Positions 23,340 through 34,112 of a stretch of DNA of 64,000 bases are shown piece after piece. This DNA is from Actinomyces vulturis (GTDB lineage Bacteria > Actinomycetota > Actinomycetes > Actinomycetales > Actinomycetaceae), in the NCBI RefSeq assembly GCF_001687305.1, contig NZ_KV700385.1, positions 478,523 to 542,522 of the forward strand. The letters run 5' to 3'. The translations under genes were made by a program, and so were the position numbers. The notes under the pieces were generated by a model. It searched no databases. It worked only from the letters and a program-made list of their open reading frames with translations, and had not been told where the DNA came from. Within the stretch, counting starts at the first letter, position 1; every line of letters begins with the position of its first letter.

Positions 23340-24809
23340 ATGCCTTGCCCCATTAACCACTCCGGTTCCACCACCATCACTGGAGCCCCTGTTCAATCAG
23401 AATCCCACTCCCTGACCGCAGGCCCTGACGGCCCGATCATGCTGCACGATGTGCATTTCGTTGAACAGATGGCTCACTTCGACCGCGAACGCTTACCCGA
23501 GCGCGTAGTGCACGCGAAGGGCTCTGGCGCGTTCGGCGTCTTCGAAGTGACTGAGGACGTGTCCGCATACACCAAGGCCGCCGTCTTCCAGCCCGGCACT
23601 ACCACCGAGATGCTCGCCCGCTTCTCCACCGTCGCTGGCGAACAGGGATCCCCTGACACCTGGCGCGACCCTCGCGGCTTTGCCCTGAAGTTCTACACCA
23701 CCGAAGGCAACCTGGACATCGTGGGTAACAACACCCCGATCTTCTTTATCCGCGACGCCATCAAGTTCCCCCACTTCATCCGCTCCCAGAAGCGCCGCGG
23801 CGCCTCCGGCCTGCGCGACAACACCATGCAGTGGGACTTCTGGAGCCTCAACCCCGAGTCTGCCCACCAGGTTTCTTACCTCATGGGCGACCGCGGCATC
23901 CCCGCCACCTACCGCGAGATGAACGGTTACGGCTCCCACACCTACATGTGGATTAACGCCGAGGGCGAGAAGTTCTGGGTGAAGTACCACTTCATTTCCC
24001 AGCAGGGTGTACGCGGCCTGACCAATGAAGAGGCTGACAAGCTCGCCGGCATCGACGCCGACACTCACCGTCGTGACCTGTTCGAAGCCATTGAGCGCGG
24101 TGACTTCCCCAAGTGGGACATGTACGTCCAGGTCATCCCCTTCGATGAGGGCTTCACCTACCGTTACAACATCTTCGATGTGACCAAGGTTGTTTCTCTG
24201 AAGGATTACCCCCGTATCAAGGTGGGTACCTTCACCCTGAATAAGAACCCCGAGAACTACTTTGCTCAGATTGAACAGGCTGCTTTCGATCCCAGCGCAC
24301 TGGTTCCCGGTGTGGGCCTGTCGCCCGACAAGATGCTGCTTGGCCGCGTCTTTAGTTACGCCGACACTCACCGTCACCGTATTGGCGCTAACTACCTGCA
24401 GTTGCCCGTGAACCGCCCGAAGAACGCCAAGGTCAACACCTATGCGGCCGATGGGCCGATGGCTTACGACCATAACGGCGACTTGCCCCCGTATGCACCG
24501 AACTCCTTTGATCGCCCCTACTCTGATCAGCAGGGCGTGGCTGATGATTCCTTCGCCGTGAGCGGCGATCTGGTCCGTCAGGCTCAGACTGTGCGCGCTC
24601 CTGAAGATGATGACTTCAGCCAGGCTCGCGACCTGATCATGAACATTTTCGACGACGCACAACGTGAAGAGTTCGTCCGTAACGTTGCCGGTCACATCAG
24701 TGGTGTCTCCGATGACGCCGTTCGTGAGCGTGCATTCGAGTACTGGGCAAACATCGACGGCGGTATCGCTGATCGAATCCGCGCAGCACACGCCGAACTG
24801 GCCAAGTGA
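23340..24809 (+). CDS. katA: Monofunctional haem catalase
   Basis: 489 residues, the size of small-subunit (clade 3) catalases, which split hydrogen peroxide to water and oxygen in the cytoplasm. Catalytic residues are visible: His58 in [12 protein letters not shown], Asn131 in [12 protein letters not shown], and the proximal haem tyrosine near residue 340 in [22 protein letters not shown]-site and dimer-arm regions match the family order. AAAGGAG precedes the ATG. Codon use is strongly biased to C/G third positions compared with neighbours, consistent with high expression. This bias also creates a long spurious antisense ORF. It is flanked by its own promoter and a strong downstream hairpin, hence monocistronic. 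Confidence 0.95.
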
Positions 24810-25680: not shown

Positions 25681-26022
25681 CTATCCTGTTGATACTGTTC
25701 GGCGCGTACGAGATGAGCGGAGGAGCAAAAACATCCCTGCCTGCATGACGAGAAGCGTCAGCACTCCAACTCCAACATACAGAGCGAACGCTCCGTCATT
25801 CGCACTCTCGGCAGAGTTCGATACCTGCACCATGCCATAAGCCGTAATAAGGAAAACAGGTGCCACCATCATCAGGGCGATACCCGTCGCCAATTGAGAT
25901 GCCGCGGCGCGATATCCGCGAATAATTTCCTGGATCTTGTCTAGGGTGATCAGGGCCTGCAAGCCAGGAGCACCATACGCAAAAGTCCCCATTGCTCCGT
26001 TGCCCTCATTTACTGAATCCAT
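25681..26022 (-). pseudogene. N-terminal half of an interrupted membrane protein
   Basis: 113 codons from an ATG at 26022 with GGAAGG upstream (an in-frame TTG lies at 26043). A soluble start with GLQALITLDKIQEIIRGYR is followed by two hydrophobic segments and a basic end, RSSRTRRTVSTG, then TAG. Coding-like sequence continues in frame past the TAG. It may still be translated as a short two-helix protein. See the entry at 25369 for the second half. Confidence 0.5.
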
Positions 26023-26116
26023 GGGTTCTTTTCCTTCCGGCAAGCAACAAGGATTTCATTCACCCTCAATAGGACGATAATAAAGCCACTACTCAATTCG
26101 AATTGCGGGAGCAGTC

Positions 26117-26889
26117 ATGGAACGGGACGAACTGGACGAGGCATTTGATGAGCGGTGCCGTCGGGCCGGAGTGGTTGCTGATTACTTCCCTTCCAGCCAA
26201 GTCCCTCATGAAGAGTCATACGTCATTGTCTAAAAGCGGTCACTGCTATCCCGGAGTAAGCCCTGGATCCTCGGGTGGCACGAGCGGGGACACGTCAGTA
26301 GTTTTGCTCAGCGGTTTGCGAGCAAAGAGGATGCTCTCAACGCTCTCTTCCAGCAAACGATTCGACAGGAATATATCGAGACGCTCCACCCACGCACGCG
26401 TGAAATCAGCGCACCTCCTGGAGATCCTCACCTCACCGTACGAATGTCAGCAGCACCGTTCCCACTCGGAGGTCTCTCCTTCGCTATTCACTGTGAATCT
26501 GGGTGGATCGGAGGCGAACCGAGCGACTGCCCGTGTCAGATCTATGCCATCGGCACGCCTGCCCGTGGAGAAAAATGCTCGATGATTAACTTCGGCCCTG
26601 ACAATCAGTTGCGTCTAGAGTTCTTTGGTCCGGTTCAGGTCGGTAGTCCAGAACCGTTTGACCTGAACGTCAGCGACAACACGCCACTGTGCTTCTCTGA
26701 GCGCATCACGTTCAAGGAACCGGCACTACTGCGCGACATTGCTCATGAGCACCATGCATTTACTGTACTTCGATCCGGGGCATCTCGATCTGATGTTCAC
26801 TGCCTGCGCGGATCCGTCATACGCCGGACAGTTTCGCGCGTTCGAACCTACCATCCTACAAAATCTCTTAAACAAAGCTTTTCAATAAA
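26117..26889 (+). pseudogene. Decayed orphan ORF with an in-frame stop and probable frameshift
   Basis: ATG at 26117 opens MERDELDEAFDERCRRAGVV and runs 38 codons to a TAA at 26231. The same frame continues with protein-like sequence (GWHERGHVSSFAQRF, then KEDALNALFQQTIRQEYIE) to about 26750. From about 26746 a different plus frame becomes the better one (LYFDPGHLDLMFTACADPSY and on to a TAA at 26889). A tryptophan- and acid-rich protein interrupted by one nonsense codon and one frameshift is the simplest explanation. The product is not recognised. Confidence 0.45.
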
Positions 26890-27049
26890 TAAATACTAAA
26901 AAGCACAAAAATCATATTAAACATAGCCTTTAAAATGCCTGTAAAGACGCCACCGTTCACACAGTCATCCATCTGACCTTTTCGAAACAGACGACTTATC
27001 AATTGAATTTAAAGAAAAATGGGAAAAATAAATATTGAAATAACCATAC

Positions 27050-27624
27050 CTAAATATCGAAGCGACACGGCGCATCCCTATGATAACGTTGTATTAAGAT
27101 AACTCCGCCCGACGGGCCGTACACATCAGCCCAACTATTTCTTGCAGTGGAGCCAATCCCCACTGGAAGCGCAATCACTCTATTTTTCTTACTATCGATC
27201 CGCTCATTAGAATATGTCCATTTCTGGTTAACCCAATGGTTACAAGGATTAAAAGATGCCGAACTAGAAATCAAAGCATCTAGAGTAATCACTAAAATAT
27301 CGATCGATTCTTTCGCCATAACACAAAAGCCAAAACGGGTTCAAGGTCACGAAATTCACAAGCTTTTCTGCATTTAAAAATATCATTTGGATGCAAATTT
27401 AAACTGGAGTTGGACGCATTTACAGTGTTCCGCGACTTTACAGATATACCGTATTTCTTGTGGCCTACGTGTGGAAAATTGACATAAAACGCAAGATCAA
27501 TTCCGTTAGAATCGAGGAAATCAACACCCTCTAACTGGTCGCCAGAATCAAAAGCGCTAGCGAGTGCATCGAAGACATACCACTCACCTGTAGTCCCAAC
27601 TTTACGACTCTCCGTGTGTTTCAT
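27050..27624 (-). pseudogene. Probable PD-(D/E)XK-type nuclease, frameshifted
   Basis: The first frame (27624 to 27292) encodes about 100 sensible residues: GTTGEWYVFDALASAF, then GIDLAFY and KKYGISVKSRN. The spacing of an acidic residue before a strand and then I-S-V-K fits a PD-(D/E)XK-like nuclease core, as in restriction-type and DUF4365-like proteins. After EPVLAF the frame loses sense. An overlapping frame starting VMAKESIDILVITLDALISS continues naturally to 27050. Restoring one T in the TTTT run near 27330 would join them into roughly 190 residues. DNA here is AT-rich. It follows the AAA ATPase gene on the same strand, suggesting an ATPase-nuclease pair. Confidence 0.55.
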
Positions 27625-27752
27625 AAAAGTAATCCATATACAGAAGAATGAAATTTTTCCGAAAGGCCAGCAACATACTGGTAGAAAACCGAATTAGACT
27701 CGTCTACAACAAGCCATCGGTTAGAAATAACACAAGATATGATGAAATATAT
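27621..27752 (-). other. ORF remnant overlapping the nuclease start
   Basis: 43 open codons with no ATG, GTG or TTG start, containing SNRWLVVDESNSVFYQYVAG and ending in TGA that overlaps the nuclease ATG (ATGA). The sequence looks protein-like. It may be the tail of a small gene whose start was lost, originally coupled to the nuclease gene. Confidence 0.35.
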
Positions 27753-27790
27753 TTAAACTCAATAACAACAACAAATTAAGCGATTACAAA

Positions 27791-29290
27791 TTAGATTAAA
27801 GTTTGATATAAAGAGAACATAAATTTAATCGATTCCGCAATCTCATCAATAGTTGGCTTTTTACGATAAGGCAACTCGCCGGGATGATCAATAAAATTAC
27901 GAATATACACGGGCATCGTTTTGTCGGCCTTCACAGGACAATTGCTTCCATCCAATGTGTTAATATGGCAGCCATCGGTTTTCGGAATGCCGCTTAATGT
28001 CGCAAAATACTGATCGACACTACTTATCTTAGCCCCAACACCGTTTTTACCCTTCAATAATTTATGTAGTTCCCCGAATAATTCAATATGCAGTTCAACG
28101 CTCGGAAGGCCAAATGCGAAATAGTTAATCGCTGCCCAACTAGGCCCGAAATCGTTACTATTGATTCTACATAAATCACCATCACTAATTTCAACCTTAG
28201 AAAAGGCTGAGGCACTAGAGTCGCCTTCTTGATATATCCGTTTGAATACTTTCAATGCATGATTCTTAGAATCGAAATTACGTAATAAATATGGGGAGTG
28301 TGTAGTGATAAAAATCTGTGAAGACGATGCCAAAGAAGAAAGAGACCCTAAAAGTTTATCCTGGGCAACTGGATGAAGAAATGTCTCAGGTTCATCAATA
28401 AAAAAGAATACGGGCCTTTTCTGACTTGGGAAATTATTTCGCTGTAGTGTCGCGTACAACTGAATCAAACTAAGCGCAAAGGCCCGTTGCATTCCGGTAC
28501 CTTTTTCCTTAATTTCCGTTTCTACACCATTATCAGTAACTTGAATTGTTCCATTCTTCATGAAACTATCTTCAGCAGGAAGGGTAAACTGGATATTGAT
28601 TTTGGACTCCCCGTATTGATCAAGCAAAAGTCGTTCAAGGTCCGCCTCAATTGACTTTATCGCAGTTTTAAACTCATCACCTTCAAAAGTTGCTTTATGC
28701 GCCTCCATCAGATTAATCCAAATCGACGAGTTTCTAATTTCATTCGTGGCTGTATCGATTATTTTCCCTAACAACCGCGCCTTAGAGAAGTCTTGATACT
28801 CCTCGACAGAAAGGTCCGAGAAGACGAATTGTGAATCTAATACAGAAGCAGCAACTTTATCAATGCCAGTTGGATTTTCGAAGACGCCAATCTCAGGATT
28901 AAGGATTAAGAGATTTTTTTGTTCAGTCCGTTTAATTTTGTTTTTCGAATCAGTCCATTCCAAACTCTTAGAAGTCCTGAGAAGCGTCAATGTGTTCTCA
29001 TTGGAAACATAATCAGAAAGTTTTTGAAGAGATTCATCATTTTTTATAATTTCTTTAATGTCATTACCACCAAGAACTAATTCGACAGATAATTCGGCGT
29101 CTGAAGAACAGGATTTGTTTAGGTTTTTCTCTTTATCGCCGTTTGATTTTAAAAACTGAATAGCACGAAATATAGTAGTCTTCCCACAATTATTATTGCC
29201 GACAAAATAATTCAAACCAGGTTTGAAGTCTAGAACAACTTCTCCCTGAAAGCACCTAAAATTCATTAATTTAAGTCTTTGGATATACAT
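27791..29290 (-). CDS. OLD-like AAA-family ATPase
   Basis: 499 residues. The N-terminal RLKLMNFRCFQGEVVLDF and the P-loop VGNNNCGKTT (about 30-39) are those of RecF/OLD-type ATPases. An S-x-G-like signature KGTGMQRAFALSL lies near 265, Walker B FFFIDEPETFLHP near 296 and the H-loop TTHSPYLLRNF near 330. The C-terminal part contains PVYIRNFIDHPGE, a motif seen in defence-associated AAA_21 proteins, rather than a clear TOPRIM domain. The ATG has GAGGAAAA upstream. Codon use and base composition are much more AT-rich than the flanks, indicating acquisition by transfer. It is followed by a probable nuclease gene, so an anti-phage role is inferred, not shown. Confidence 0.8.
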   Translation of the reverse strand: MYIQRLKLMNFRCFQGEVVLDFKPGLNYFVGNNNCGKTTIFRAIQFLKSNGDKEKNLNKSCSSDAELSVELVLGGNDIKEIIKNDESLQKLSDYVSNENTLTLLRTSKSLEWTDSKNKIKRTEQKNLLILNPEIGVFENPTGIDKVAASVLDSQFVFSDLSVEEYQDFSKARLLGKIIDTATNEIRNSSIWINLMEAHKATFEGDEFKTAIKSIEADLERLLLDQYGESKINIQFTLPAEDSFMKNGTIQVTDNGVETEIKEKGTGMQRAFALSLIQLYATLQRNNFPSQKRPVFFFIDEPETFLHPVAQDKLLGSLSSLASSSQIFITTHSPYLLRNFDSKNHALKVFKRIYQEGDSSASAFSKVEISDGDLCRINSNDFGPSWAAINYFAFGLPSVELHIELFGELHKLLKGKNGVGAKISSVDQYFATLSGIPKTDGCHINTLDGSNCPVKADKTMPVYIRNFIDHPGELPYRKKPTIDEIAESIKFMFSLYQTLI

Positions 29291-29835
29291 TATTTTTCCT
29301 CGGAATTAGTAGTTTCTCTCATCTATTTTAGCGAAGTCGCTAAACAAAGCGAGTTTATTGATCTCAGTTTGCCCTCTTCCTATTTGCTGCGAATATTAAC
29401 TAATTTCAGTTTTACGTCGCGAATGAACAAACACCTCCGAGCATGGGACCAAATGTTCTTATTCAAATCATTCTCACCTATGAGCCTGATTTGAATAGAC
29501 GACGTTAGCCGACTATCGTTTAAGGTAAATCGGTATGGGCCGAACGGAACTAATTGATTAAATCGTAACAGGTCAAGCAAGAGCAAGGCCGTATTTTCGA
29601 TCAACTAGTTTTGGCGCCTCCCGAATACATCGATAGTTTCCTAGGTGCCGTAGATCCTTCGATATACCCGATTTTGCCTACCTGTAAAGTCGTGATCATT
29701 TACGATTTAATCGTAAATTTCGGGTAGTAACACTCGCAATCTATCGCTGCTCAAACTTCATCTGGTTCTTGTTACTACTTCGATCTGCCCAAAGAAAACT
29801 GGGATTTTCTTTGATTCGCCCGTGGTTTTGTTTCG
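29291..29835. other. AT-rich non-coding stretch between the ATPase gene and IS remnant
   Basis: No supportable gene. The short minus-strand frame 29380-29604 needs a TTG start and shows no family resemblance. The only structured element seen is the palindrome at 29698. Base composition rises back towards the genome average near 29750. Confidence 0.5.
29698..29718. promoter_or_regulatory. 21-bp palindrome, possible operator
   Basis: The arms ATTTACGATT and AATCGTAAAT flank a single central T. An AATCGTAA half-site recurs near 29565. It lies about 410 bp upstream of the ATPase start. Confidence 0.35.
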
Positions 29836-31055
29836 TTAGTGGGTTTCTAACACCTGGGCGGTGTCATTGGCATGATACTTGTCTTCTACCTCTTGTGGCA
29901 TTCGGAGGTTGGGTGTGCTGTGGAGGCGTTTAGGGTTCCACCAGTGGACCCAATTCATGGTTTCGTATTCCACCTCGAATACGCATGCCCCATGCGCGTG
30001 AGTAGATCAACTCGGTCTTGTACAGGCCGTTAACACTTTCAGCCATCGCAATCTCGTAAGAATCTCCTGTTGCCCCAACAGAAAGCCTGATCCCTTTCTT
30101 GCGTAGTCGTTCCGTATACAGATGGGACACGTACTGGCTGCCACGATCAGAATGATGCGCCAACTGGCTCATGTCTCCTGTCGCGGCAGTTAACGTATGA
30201 TTAAGGGCCTCTCTAAGGGCAGGGCTTCTGTTTTCATGGACGCGCGCACGGCCCAGCCCACGATCCTGCAGCCGAACACGTCAGTGACAAAAGCCGTGTA
30301 GACAAACCCCGTGCAGATACGCACATAGGTAATGTCAGCGACCCACAACTGGTGGGGGCATCGGCACATTACCTGCGTTTAACCAGATCCGGACAATCAT
30401 CCTTGCCACCCCGTGAGAGCGTAGCTTTCAAGCCCCCCCCCACGACTCACGCCGCCAATCCCAGCAATCTTCATGAGCCTGGCTACCTGGTCGCCTCCCA
30501 CCTACCAGCCCTCCTCTTGCATTGCTTTGGTGAGTTTGACCGCGCCATAAACGTTGTCATTGTGCTGGTGCACTTTCCTGATGATGGGCAGCATGTGTTT
30601 ATCACGAAATACTGCGCGTTGAACGTGATCTGCTTTTGGCATACCGGTAAGCGCGTGATGGGATGAAGGCGCCTTCGAGGTGTTCGCGTAGTGTCCGGCC
30701 AATCAACTCGACCCCGTTTGTCAATGAAACGGATTCACACGCGGGCCGGGACGGCCTGGCTCGGCTGCGAATAAAGCCGATGCTGCTTTGAGAATTTCAT
30801 TGACCCTCTCCATTTCAGTGAGTTTGGCACGAAGCGATCTGACCTCAGCAGCCAACTCATCACGTGTCAACTCATTAGTTGGCTGACGCGAAGCCCTAGC
30901 GGTTTTGATTCAACTATGCAGTGTGTAATGAGAAACCCCGATCTTGGAGCAATTTCTTTACACGCAGTCTCAATCGAGCGGTGATGCGTATCTATATGCT
31001 CCTCAGTGAGGTGTGCAGTGAGGCTTTGGAATTCATCGTTGAATCGTTTGGGCAT
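29836..31055 (-). mobile_element. IS3-family insertion sequence, decayed (orfA and orfB broken)
   Basis: Minus-strand pieces lie in transposase order but in different frames. The orfA start MPKRFNDEFQSLTAHL at 31055 leads to SIETACKEIAP, a frame change to GVSHYTLHS, an in-frame stop, then the coiled RSLRAKLTEMERVNEILKAA. In orfB, VYGAVKLTKAMQEEGW is followed by a stop and VARLMKIAGIGGVSRG, then LWVADITYVR (first Asp region of the integrase core), a frameshift after KTEALPLE, HHSDRGSQYVS (second Asp) with AESVNGLYKTELI (Glu region), and another frameshift before NWVHWWNPKRLHS, ending at 29836. At least five lesions make it inactive. Terminal inverted repeats were not resolved. Confidence 0.85.
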
Positions 31056-31838
31056 GTCCATGATCCTTTTAACTCTGGATACGGAACAAACCCCAGGACG
31101 AATCACTACACCACCGTTGAATTATGAAAGACTCCACGCCAATGAAGTGGTCTTCACTGGGCGAGCGAGGAGAGACCAGATGGAAGGACAACGCTACGCC
31201 CTCATGCCCGAGGAAGTCGTCTCCACCTCCAAGGTGATCTGGCAGAAACAGAATGAAGTCTTCTAAAACGGGAACCAAAAAGAACCAACGACTGACGCAA
31301 AGCCAACTCCCAAACGCTTAGTTTCGGCCACCCCAAAACTGGATGAAGTCGGCGTCATCAGAGCACTCTCAGCCTCCGAAGCATCCACGCTATCCTCACC
31401 AACCTCCAGATACGAAAAGTTTGGCACCCACTTTTCTGCAATATGAAAGGAAAGCAGACTACCTGGCCAACACCAGCCCAGGAACGGCGTGTATCTGCTC
31501 GTGCTAAATAATGGATCTCTAATGACCGACGTTGATACGCCAGGCAGTTGCCAGCACCTTTCAGAAACCGCGCGCCACCAATGCTAAACACGGAGTTCAG
31601 AACGCTAACCATCAAGGTGCGCAGGTCAACCACACTCCTCACCGAGCACCAATACTGTGATGGTGAACCCCTCATGTCCTCTCAGCCAGACACGCCTCGG
31701 ACGGGCATTCTTGCTTACTACACGGCCTCTATTAATCTTCAAGGGTGTTAACACCAGAGGTGACAACTCTGAATGTTAATACCAGGCCCAAACGCCAGAA
31801 TTGACGTTACCTCACTTCAAAACGCTCTGAAAAACGTA
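31056..31838. other. Remnant-filled intergenic stretch
   Basis: No intact gene. A plus-strand frame ending at 31266 (VFTGRARRDQMEGQRYALMP region) has a protein-like end without a recognisable family. The first of two degenerate direct repeats lies at 31312-31495. The rest, up to the MFS stop, shows nothing. Confidence 0.4.
31312..31495 (+). repeat. Degenerate direct repeat, left copy
   Basis: Homologous to 33829-34020 in the same orientation. It shares an identical 19-mer CCACCCCAAAACTGGATGA (31328-31346), the TACGAAAA block, and the end GGCCAAC-x-CCAGCCC followed by AACGGCGTGTATC. The two copies flank the MFS gene. Confidence 0.7.
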
Positions 31839-33080
31839 TCAGTGACGTGAGGTACGCACGAATGACACCATCAGCCAAATCGTCGCGGCGCACAACAGGC
31901 CAATGAATGGGGAATGAGGCACCTTGAGCCAGTAACCCAACTGCAGGCCCAGCATTGTGCCCAAGCCTCCAAAGGCGTAGGACCAGCTCATTACCCGCTC
32001 GAACTGGCTACCAGAAAAATACGTTTGACGGTGCGCGCTTAGCACACTCATTCGTGCCCGAGCCACCACCACATTGGCAAACACAAAGACCAGAGCCAGA
32101 ACAAAAGACACTTCGCCCCGCCACACCGACACAGCCAATGCACACACCAGCACGCAAGACACCGCGGCACTGAGGTTGAGGACTACCTGGGAGGAACTGC
32201 ACTGAGCCATCCAGCGGCCAACCTGGGGGCCGAGCGTGGCCGCCAGACCAAAGACCAGCAGAACGGTAGCCATGGCATCATATTTCGACAACGATGACAG
32301 CGAGGCCACCCACAAGAACAACAGTTGGCCCGTCAGTGCGCCAGCCACCTGAATCGCAAAGGACAACAGTGGTGAGGCAGGACCCGAATGAATCAAGTCA
32401 TGCACAAACTGCGACAGTGGCGTGCGCTGGCCCATCGCCGAGTACTCCTCAGCATCCACCTCATCACGCGGGGCAGCCAGCAAAAAAGCACTCCCCGACC
32501 ACAGGCGTGAGCCAATCGAAAGTAGTGACAAGACAATATTGCCCGCCAAGAGCCACAACACCGATACGGCAGCGATCACCGAGCCCAACGGTGCCAGCAC
32601 CACAAACCCAAAAAATGCCAGCATCGAATCGACCGTTGCGTTAAAGGCCAGCGCGTCATTACCCGAACGGGCCGCCAAACCCGCTCCATAGAACTCATCC
32701 GCAATATCGCTCACAGGGGCGACCAGCAGATCCAGCAGCACGTACCCCACAATGAACACATGTGTATACGCGGGGAGCATCAACACCCCCGCAACCGCCA
32801 GCAGGGACAAGGCAACTTCCACTACGTCAGCCCCAATGAGCGCCCAGTTTGGGCTGATCCCTCGCAAGAGGCGAGCATAAAGTGGGAAGAGGATGACAGT
32901 TAGTTCACCAAAGGTTGACACTGCTACGACGGTGGCCACGGAAATCACCCCGGCCGAGGCCAGGCCATCGAAACCACCCTCGACCAGACGGTTACCCATG
33001 ACAGAAAGCACAAGTGCAGCCGACATGAGACGGCGGGCACGAACAAGCGAGCGATGGTTCAGAGTAGTTTTCTTCTGCAA
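31839..33080 (-). CDS. MFS-type transporter inside the accessory region
   Basis: 413 residues with about twelve hydrophobic segments and a basic N-terminus (MQKKTTLNHRSLVRARRLM). The loop between the two halves is acidic (PRDEVDAEEYSAMG). No strong MFS signature lets a substrate be named; the overall pattern is that of drug- or macrolide-efflux-like permeases. GC content is normal, unlike the AT-rich ATPase module to its left. It lies between two degenerate direct repeats and next to a tRNA gene, so it may have been brought in as cargo. The start is the first ATG of the frame; MSAALV at residue 19 is an alternative. Confidence 0.65.
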   Translation of the reverse strand: MQKKTTLNHRSLVRARRLMSAALVLSVMGNRLVEGGFDGLASAGVISVATVVAVSTFGELTVILFPLYARLLRGISPNWALIGADVVEVALSLLAVAGVLMLPAYTHVFIVGYVLLDLLVAPVSDIADEFYGAGLAARSGNDALAFNATVDSMLAFFGFVVLAPLGSVIAAVSVLWLLAGNIVLSLLSIGSRLWSGSAFLLAAPRDEVDAEEYSAMGQRTPLSQFVHDLIHSGPASPLLSFAIQVAGALTGQLLFLWVASLSSLSKYDAMATVLLVFGLAATLGPQVGRWMAQCSSSQVVLNLSAAVSCVLVCALAVSVWRGEVSFVLALVFVFANVVVARARMSVLSAHRQTYFSGSQFERVMSWSYAFGGLGTMLGLQLGYWLKVPHSPFIGLLCAATIWLMVSFVRTSRH

Positions 33081-33828: not shown

Positions 33829-34020
33829 ACGCTTCGTGCCTCAACCACCCCAAAACTGGATGAACTTCGCCTCGCCAGACCGCCCCTCCCCTGGCCCGGC
33901 AACCGCCACCGCAGCCCCCCCACCAGCCACTAGGTACGAAAAAGCCGGGCACCGACTTTCCCGCAATATCAAGGGAAAACAAGCCACCCGGCCAACGCCA
34001 GCCCTAAAACGGCGTGTATC
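33829..34020 (+). repeat. Degenerate direct repeat, right copy
   Basis: The counterpart of 31312-31495, with the shared 19-mer at 33845-33863 and a shared end AACGGCGTGTATC at 34020. It stops 17 bp short of the CCA end of tRNA-Thr. Confidence 0.7.
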
Positions 34021-34036
34021 CGTTTGGACTGGATAG

Positions 34037-34112
34037 TGGAGCCACCTGTGGGAATCGAACCCACGACCTGCTCTTTACGAGGGAGCTGCTCTGCCGACTG
34101 AGCTAAGGTGGC
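34037..34112 (-). tRNA. tRNA-Thr(CGT)
   Basis: 76 bases with encoded CCA. The acceptor GCCACCT pairs with AGGTGGC and the discriminator is T. The loop CTCGTAA gives anticodon CGT for ACG codons. The anticodon stem GCTCC/AGAGC has one C-A mismatch next to the loop. The T-arm GGTTCGATTCC is normal. It bounds the accessory region on its right side, a usual integration target, though no duplicated 3' tRNA end was found. Confidence 0.93.

Follow-up and report, generated by a model that had tools for sequence, protein, structure and literature searches.

An OLD-type ATPase gene with a HEPN-like C-terminal domain in Actinomyces vulturis, a probable self-contained defence gene

We analysed a window of 64,000 nucleotides (nt) of the Actinomyces vulturis genome (contig NZ_KV700385.1, positions 478,523 to 542,522), in which the gene at window positions 27791–29290 on the minus strand encodes a 499-amino-acid (aa) protein with an OLD/RecF-type ABC ATPase and a C-terminal HEPN-like domain, as recognised from its open reading frame (ORF), Pfam matches and relatives. 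We consider it probable that this gene is a self-contained defence gene, in which an OLD-type ABC ATPase is joined to a C-terminal HEPN endoribonuclease, and that the small gene downstream is unrelated to it. The observations behind this reading are an intact ORF, the ATPase motifs, a helical domain with an RX4H motif in all 22 of the family members examined, no common partner gene, settings among mobile and restriction genes, and purifying selection on both halves in relatives. An earlier note on this DNA had proposed a two-gene defence module of an OLD-like ATPase and a PD-(D/E)XK-like nuclease; its description of a Toprim-less OLD/RecF-type ATPase of probable defence type held, and the two-gene module did not.

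The ATPase ORF is intact, with an ATG start and a ribosome-binding-like GAGGA 6 nt upstream of it, and is full length compared with the relatives in alignment A2 (481–517 aa). All three motifs quoted earlier, VGNNNCGKTT, FFFIDEPETFLHP and TTHSPYLLRN, are present. Read from the sequence, the Walker A motif VGNNNCGKTT occupies residues 30–39 (29174–29203, minus strand) and the Walker B motif FFFIDEPE residues 295–302 (28385–28408, minus strand); G31, N33, N34, G36 and K37 of the former and IDEPE of the latter are unvarying in 11 of 11 aligned sequences. Pfam assigned the protein to AAA_15 (E = 1.2e-34) and AAA_21 (E = 1.1e-21), the top PADLOC model was Old (6e-48, residues 1–346; from the best 25 of 154 matches), and a profile search gave 6p74 as the best PDB match. 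Pfam listed no Toprim family for the ATPase, nor was there one among the 25 families listed for 11 members. These results bear out the earlier assignment to OLD/RecF-type ATPases lacking Toprim and support a defence-type role, which we judge probable. No second full copy of the ATPase was found in the source genome (2.2 Mb, 10 contigs).

The remainder of the protein, roughly residues 380–499 (27794–28153, minus strand), is a HEPN-like domain with five helices predicted by AlphaFold2. Only seven columns after residue 380 are unvarying in an 11-row alignment, and these include R464 and H469, the ends of the RX4H motif RNFIDH (27884–27901, minus strand), the candidate ribonuclease active site. 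RX4H, with N or H following the R (R-[N/H]-x3-H), occurs in all 22 family members examined (the window, L004–L010, L017–L019, L021–L025 and L047–L052, a count that leaves out the fragmented plasmid copy L020 and the Escherichia coli copies). The scan pattern R-[NHDSTGK]-x3-H + P/H/D was missing from all eight of the more distant ATPases listed (L011, L012, L031–L034, L037 and L038, of which L031 and L032 resemble each other).

Modelled alone (residues 376–499, 13 rows), the domain was helical with a mean predicted local distance difference test score (pLDDT) of 81.1, and its helices span 10–18, 23–37, 47–55, 84–93 and 106–123 in the model's own numbering. RX4H falls at 89–94, the end of the third core helix (84–93), ahead of the helix at 106–123, and core helices 2 and 3 are separated by an insert containing the helix at 47–55; the full-length model (7 rows, pLDDT 70.1) gives this insert two strands, which fall in a stretch of low confidence. 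Anantharaman et al. (2013; PMC3710099) describe the HEPN fold as four helices in an up-down arrangement, in which an insert often separates helices 2 and 3. The Rx4-6H motif covers the last part of helix 3 and the beginning of the loop leading to helix 4, and the residue that follows the motif R is typically polar, most often N, D or H (PMC3710099). The predicted structure agrees with this in motif, motif position and polar residue, and its insert would fit the described fold. HEPN helix 2 often has a conserved acidic residue, often as Ex3[KR] (PMC3710099); here a helix-2 Glu is unvarying in 13 of 13 rows of alignment A4 and missing from 2 of 11 rows of A2, and its context is not Ex3[KR]. Taken on the model and these features, the C-terminal domain looks like an RNA-cutting HEPN domain, and the earlier statement that the ATPase has no fused nuclease appears wrong. 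Separately, the C-terminal domain of L008 (7129–7533), one of 11 such domains, gave a weak match to one PADLOC PtuB model whose function is unstated (E = 0.0019), a hint that the same domain may occur as a separate protein in some Septu-like systems.

A relative of the ATPase in Streptococcus is 48% identical over the alignment, and others occur in Enterococcus, Elusimicrobia, Neisseria, a Neisseriaceae bacterium, Paceibacterota and Psychrobacter, on plasmids of Lactobacillus, Klebsiella and Weissella (with a fragmented copy on a Latilactobacillus plasmid), in viral contigs, and, besides the source genome, in two genomes of its genus and another four of its order. In Streptococcus, Neisseria, Lactobacillus, Klebsiella and E. 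coli, records name the family only as 'AAA family ATPase', 'ATP-binding protein' or 'ATP-dependent nuclease'. Counting the source genome each time, the ATPase is present in 3 of 49 genomes of the genus and 6 of 396 of the order, and of 5426 complete E. coli genomes 10 contain a homologue. At the DNA level the E. coli homologues are near-identical to viral contig L024, which encodes a protein with about 31% identity to that of the window. The ratio of non-synonymous to synonymous substitution rates (dN/dS) was 0.05–0.10 for the ATPase part (dS measurable in 3 of the 11 pairs listed, the others being saturated) and 0.06–0.29 for the C-terminal part (dS measurable in 7 of the 11 pairs listed, the others again saturated). 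These low values therefore point to purifying selection on both halves of the protein in its relatives.

No partner gene common to the ATPase-family loci was found among the loci compared. As a raw count, the gene is placed within or next to restriction-modification genes at 6 of 22 loci. With X for the ATPase gene, Pfam gave the orders hsdM-hsdS-X-hsdR at L006, hsdM-X-hsdS-hsdR at L021 and methylase-methylase-helicase-X at L050; the methylase-methylase-helicase set was also recognised by eye at L051 (from the genus of L050) and at L009, where X comes first, and at L049 X adjoins a C5 methylase (Pfam) and a GIY-YIG-like gene (by eye) on the opposite strand. The gene order of the prr locus resembles that of L006. 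At 5 of 22 loci the gene stands directly behind an integrase (L022–L025 by eye, L019 annotated). Two of the ten E. coli regions were opened, H2 (L066) and H8 (L067); there the homologue, annotated 'ATP-dependent nuclease', follows an integrase, or a frameshifted gene where the integrase would be, near rcnR, and both regions look like mobile islands. As a side observation, the ATPase gene of Streptococcus sp. ZJ373 (L004, 6001–7491) stands alone between serB- and hisB-like genes in a histidine cluster, and that of Psychrobacter (L010) lies near hisB- and hisH-like genes, all named by eye.

The small gene that the earlier note had paired with the ATPase is present on the same strand, with GIDLAFY and KKYGISVKSRN as described, and is split over two frames. 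Its first piece (110 aa; 27292–27624, minus strand), which has a prophage relative and which we place outside the proposed system, contains both motifs; a probable second piece lies in another frame at 27050–27319 (minus strand) and was recognised by pairwise alignment. Searched separately, the first piece matched an intact 177-aa protein encoded in the same genome (E = 1.3e-13, 49% identity), and the second aligned pairwise with the C-terminal half of that protein at 27% identity, with no match to it by tblastn at E ≤ 1. From the alignment, the second piece likely belongs to the same broken gene. Because its tie to the 177-aa prophage protein is weak, our confidence in the joint reading is slightly lowered. 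The intact 177-aa gene lies in a prophage (L053; G000 C3 335000–354900), flanked on one side by genes for a DNA polymerase, a single-stranded-DNA-binding protein, an antirepressor, a primase-helicase and an SNF2-type helicase and by an activator-like gene, and on the other by an HNH endonuclease followed by a ParB/methyltransferase gene.

One rival reading is that the two genes form an ATPase–nuclease module whose nuclease is broken in this strain. A tblastn search (E ≤ 1) with both pieces and the 177-aa relative found no significant match at any of the 21 other ATPase-family loci (0/21), giving chance-level matches only at L011 (E = 0.98) and L004 (E = 0.53; 43 residues, about 4.5 kb from the ATPase gene), with the flanks searched being short or masked at L005, L019 and L023; therefore the ATPase and the small gene are not a conserved pair. 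Among the genomes sampled, only the source genome had relatives of the small protein (1 of 49 in the genus, 1 of 396 in the order and 1 of 296 in the phylum). A PD-(D/E)XK core has the form D...(D/E)xK, with D or E expected before x-K. The GE, GID and GISVK-RN elements common to the small protein and its 177-aa relative recall such a core, which by eye is possible, and the two genes of the window share a strand and an AT-rich block and are only 166 bp apart. However, both copies of the small protein, though they keep GID, read SVK, with Ser at the expected D/E position, and the small protein had no significant match in Pfam, PADLOC, NCBIfam, PHROGs or PDB. Moreover, its one significant relative sits intact in the prophage, between the helicase and activator on one side and the HNH endonuclease on the other, in a genome with no second full ATPase copy. 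A two-gene module is thus very improbable, and the small gene is most likely an unrelated broken gene of phage origin.

Two further explanations concern the ATPase protein itself. Its C-terminal domain might be a non-catalytic helical domain that binds RNA or protein, with a restriction system or another host nuclease as the effector. Such a domain would fit the weak matches returned by fold searches, the position of some members within restriction operons, and the proposal that some HEPN domains are probably non-catalytic and RNA-binding (PMC3710099). Yet all 22 members retain both the R and the H, including those with no adjoining restriction genes, and the same source associates the non-catalytic state with motif loss and predicts motif-bearing HEPN domains to be RNases (PMC3710099); we regard this alternative as unlikely. 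It is also rather improbable that the gene encodes a decaying or housekeeping RecF/SMC-like ATPase with no role in defence. The remnant-rich island, the adjoining insertion-sequence relic and the interrupted homologues in two genomes of the same genus would suit such a gene, but the ORF is intact and full length, its relatives are under purifying selection, and its occurrence is patchy in the genus, the order and E. coli alike, in plasmid, prophage-like and restriction settings. Some results weigh against the reading as a self-contained ATPase–HEPN defence gene: the fold-search matches to the C-terminal domain were weak, and both other copies found in the genus are interrupted by a stop, one of them matching residues 188–498 only. 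Neither Pfam nor PADLOC matched the window's C-terminal domain at E ≤ 1.

By analogy, the best reading of the self-contained gene is a compact one-protein abortive-infection ribonuclease, a variant of the ABC-ATPase–HEPN kind represented by PrrC and RloC, whose C-terminal HEPN RNase is under the control of ABC ATPase domains during infection (PMC3710099). The OLD-type ATPase would act as sensor and switch. At rest, an ATPase dimer may keep two HEPN domains in an inactive arrangement; a cue from infection, such as an inhibited restriction complex, a phage protein or a nucleotide change, would change the state of the ATPase and pair the HEPN domains, which would then cut RNA, plausibly tRNA as PrrC, RloC and PARIS do, and halt growth before the phage matures. 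We infer an ATPase-gated RNase that stops growth because of the analogy with PrrC/RloC and PARIS. The members embedded in restriction operons suggest that inhibition of a restriction complex is one trigger; stand-alone members would have to sense another cue.

If the HEPN reading is right, the protein shares with PrrC and RloC the joining of an N-terminal ABC ATPase and a C-terminal Rx4-6H ribonuclease domain in one chain. Some family members further resemble PrrC in being embedded in a type I restriction operon, the arrangement described for PrrC and PrrI, and the neighbourhood of prrC includes hsdMSR (PMC3710099). Unlike PrrC and RloC, which enter this comparison by description only, the window family has a compact head of the OLD type and differs in its C-terminal sequence, and the PADLOC PrrC model is absent from the best 25 of 154 matches of the window ATPase. 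The 738-aa APEC O1 prophage protein APECO1_RS04465 (presumed to be APECO1_4465) gave a clear match only at Walker A (E = 0.002). An ERFG_01251-type group combines an ABC ATPase with a classical HEPN domain and is also found in Neisseria (PMC3710099); the window family may overlap this group, which we likewise compare by description only.

Lack of Toprim separates the family from OLD Class 1, Gabija and PARIS, and lack of an HNH partner separates it from Septu. Like OLD Class 1 proteins, it has an OLD-type ATPase head and no partner gene; unlike them, it has no Toprim and ends in a helical domain with RX4H. Pfam recognised no GajA-type Toprim, no GajB-like helicase was recognised by eye in the adjoining ORFs, and there was no HNH, as in the Septu partner PtuB, among the seven window ORFs scanned with Pfam. 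In PARIS (AriA/AriB), the sensor of a phage protein is an OLD-type ATPase, which switches on an effector that cuts tRNA (PMC12839542). The window protein resembles it in its OLD-type ATPase and, as proposed by analogy, in a sensing ATPase that would release an RNA-cutting effector; it differs in that its effector is fused and HEPN-like, whereas AriB is a Toprim/DUF4435 protein, and Pfam found no AriB-type DUF4435/Toprim domain in the window ATPase or six other window ORFs scanned. The Staphylococcus aureus prophage protein Tha is a one-protein HEPN RNase of 301 aa whose RX4H motif is R265-NSIM-H270, with H270 needed for defence (PMC11087260). The example of Tha shows that a single protein with an RX4H HEPN domain can be enough for defence. 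According to its authors, Tha has no discernible N-terminal domain, and thus no ATPase (PMC11087260).

The gene lies in an AT-rich block of about 3 kb, distinct from its surroundings as the earlier note had said: G+C per 1-kb bin is 0.384, 0.393 and 0.400 across 27001–30000, and 0.512 (26001–27000) and 0.534 (30001–31000) in the adjoining bins. The insertion-sequence remnants and tRNA reported nearby were also found, as pieces of an IS3-family transposase and a tRNA-Thr gene (34037–34112). A degenerate IS3-family insertion adjoins the block at 29812–30947 (no strand assigned), defined by the transposase pieces and genome copies; the two pieces are probably one relic, because the same genome holds two more IS3-family copies at 73% identity (C4:351321-352448 and C2:105344-106476). 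Beyond it, direct repeats at 31328–31515 and 33845–34040 (101 nt at 75% and 35 nt at 83%) bracket an MFS transporter gene (31839–33080), and the second copy extends to the end of the tRNA-Thr gene; duplication or integration beside the tRNA is possible. On the other side of the block, a 432-aa frame (23493–24791, minus strand) runs antisense to a catalase-like ORF (23340–24809), named by eye, and is probably a shadow ORF.

ABC-ATPase–HEPN fusions had been described by 2013 at the latest, and the examples that have been studied are PrrC and RloC; the family's own traits are its OLD-type head and, in the window protein, a C-terminal domain that neither Pfam nor PADLOC matches. No description of an OLD–HEPN family appears in the available parts of PMC3710099, PMC12839542, PMC11087260, PMC10853773, PMC9122126 and PMC10568477. 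We tentatively suggest, as a possibility that falls somewhat short of an expectation, that this is a distinct one-gene immune family in which an OLD-type ATPase, normally found with Toprim, HNH or other nucleases, captured a HEPN domain and entered hsdM-hsdS-X-hsdR operons separately from PrrC. If true, it would be a second restriction-guarding RNase switch. It would also provide a bacterial one-protein answer on whether stand-alone OLD-type proteins defend alone, since whether Class 1 OLD proteins by themselves give broad defence is listed as an open question (PMC10568477). A defence finder that scores the family as OLD would assign it the wrong effector, DNA cutting in place of the likely RNA cutting, and the E. 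coli homologues open the family to direct testing in laboratory strains.
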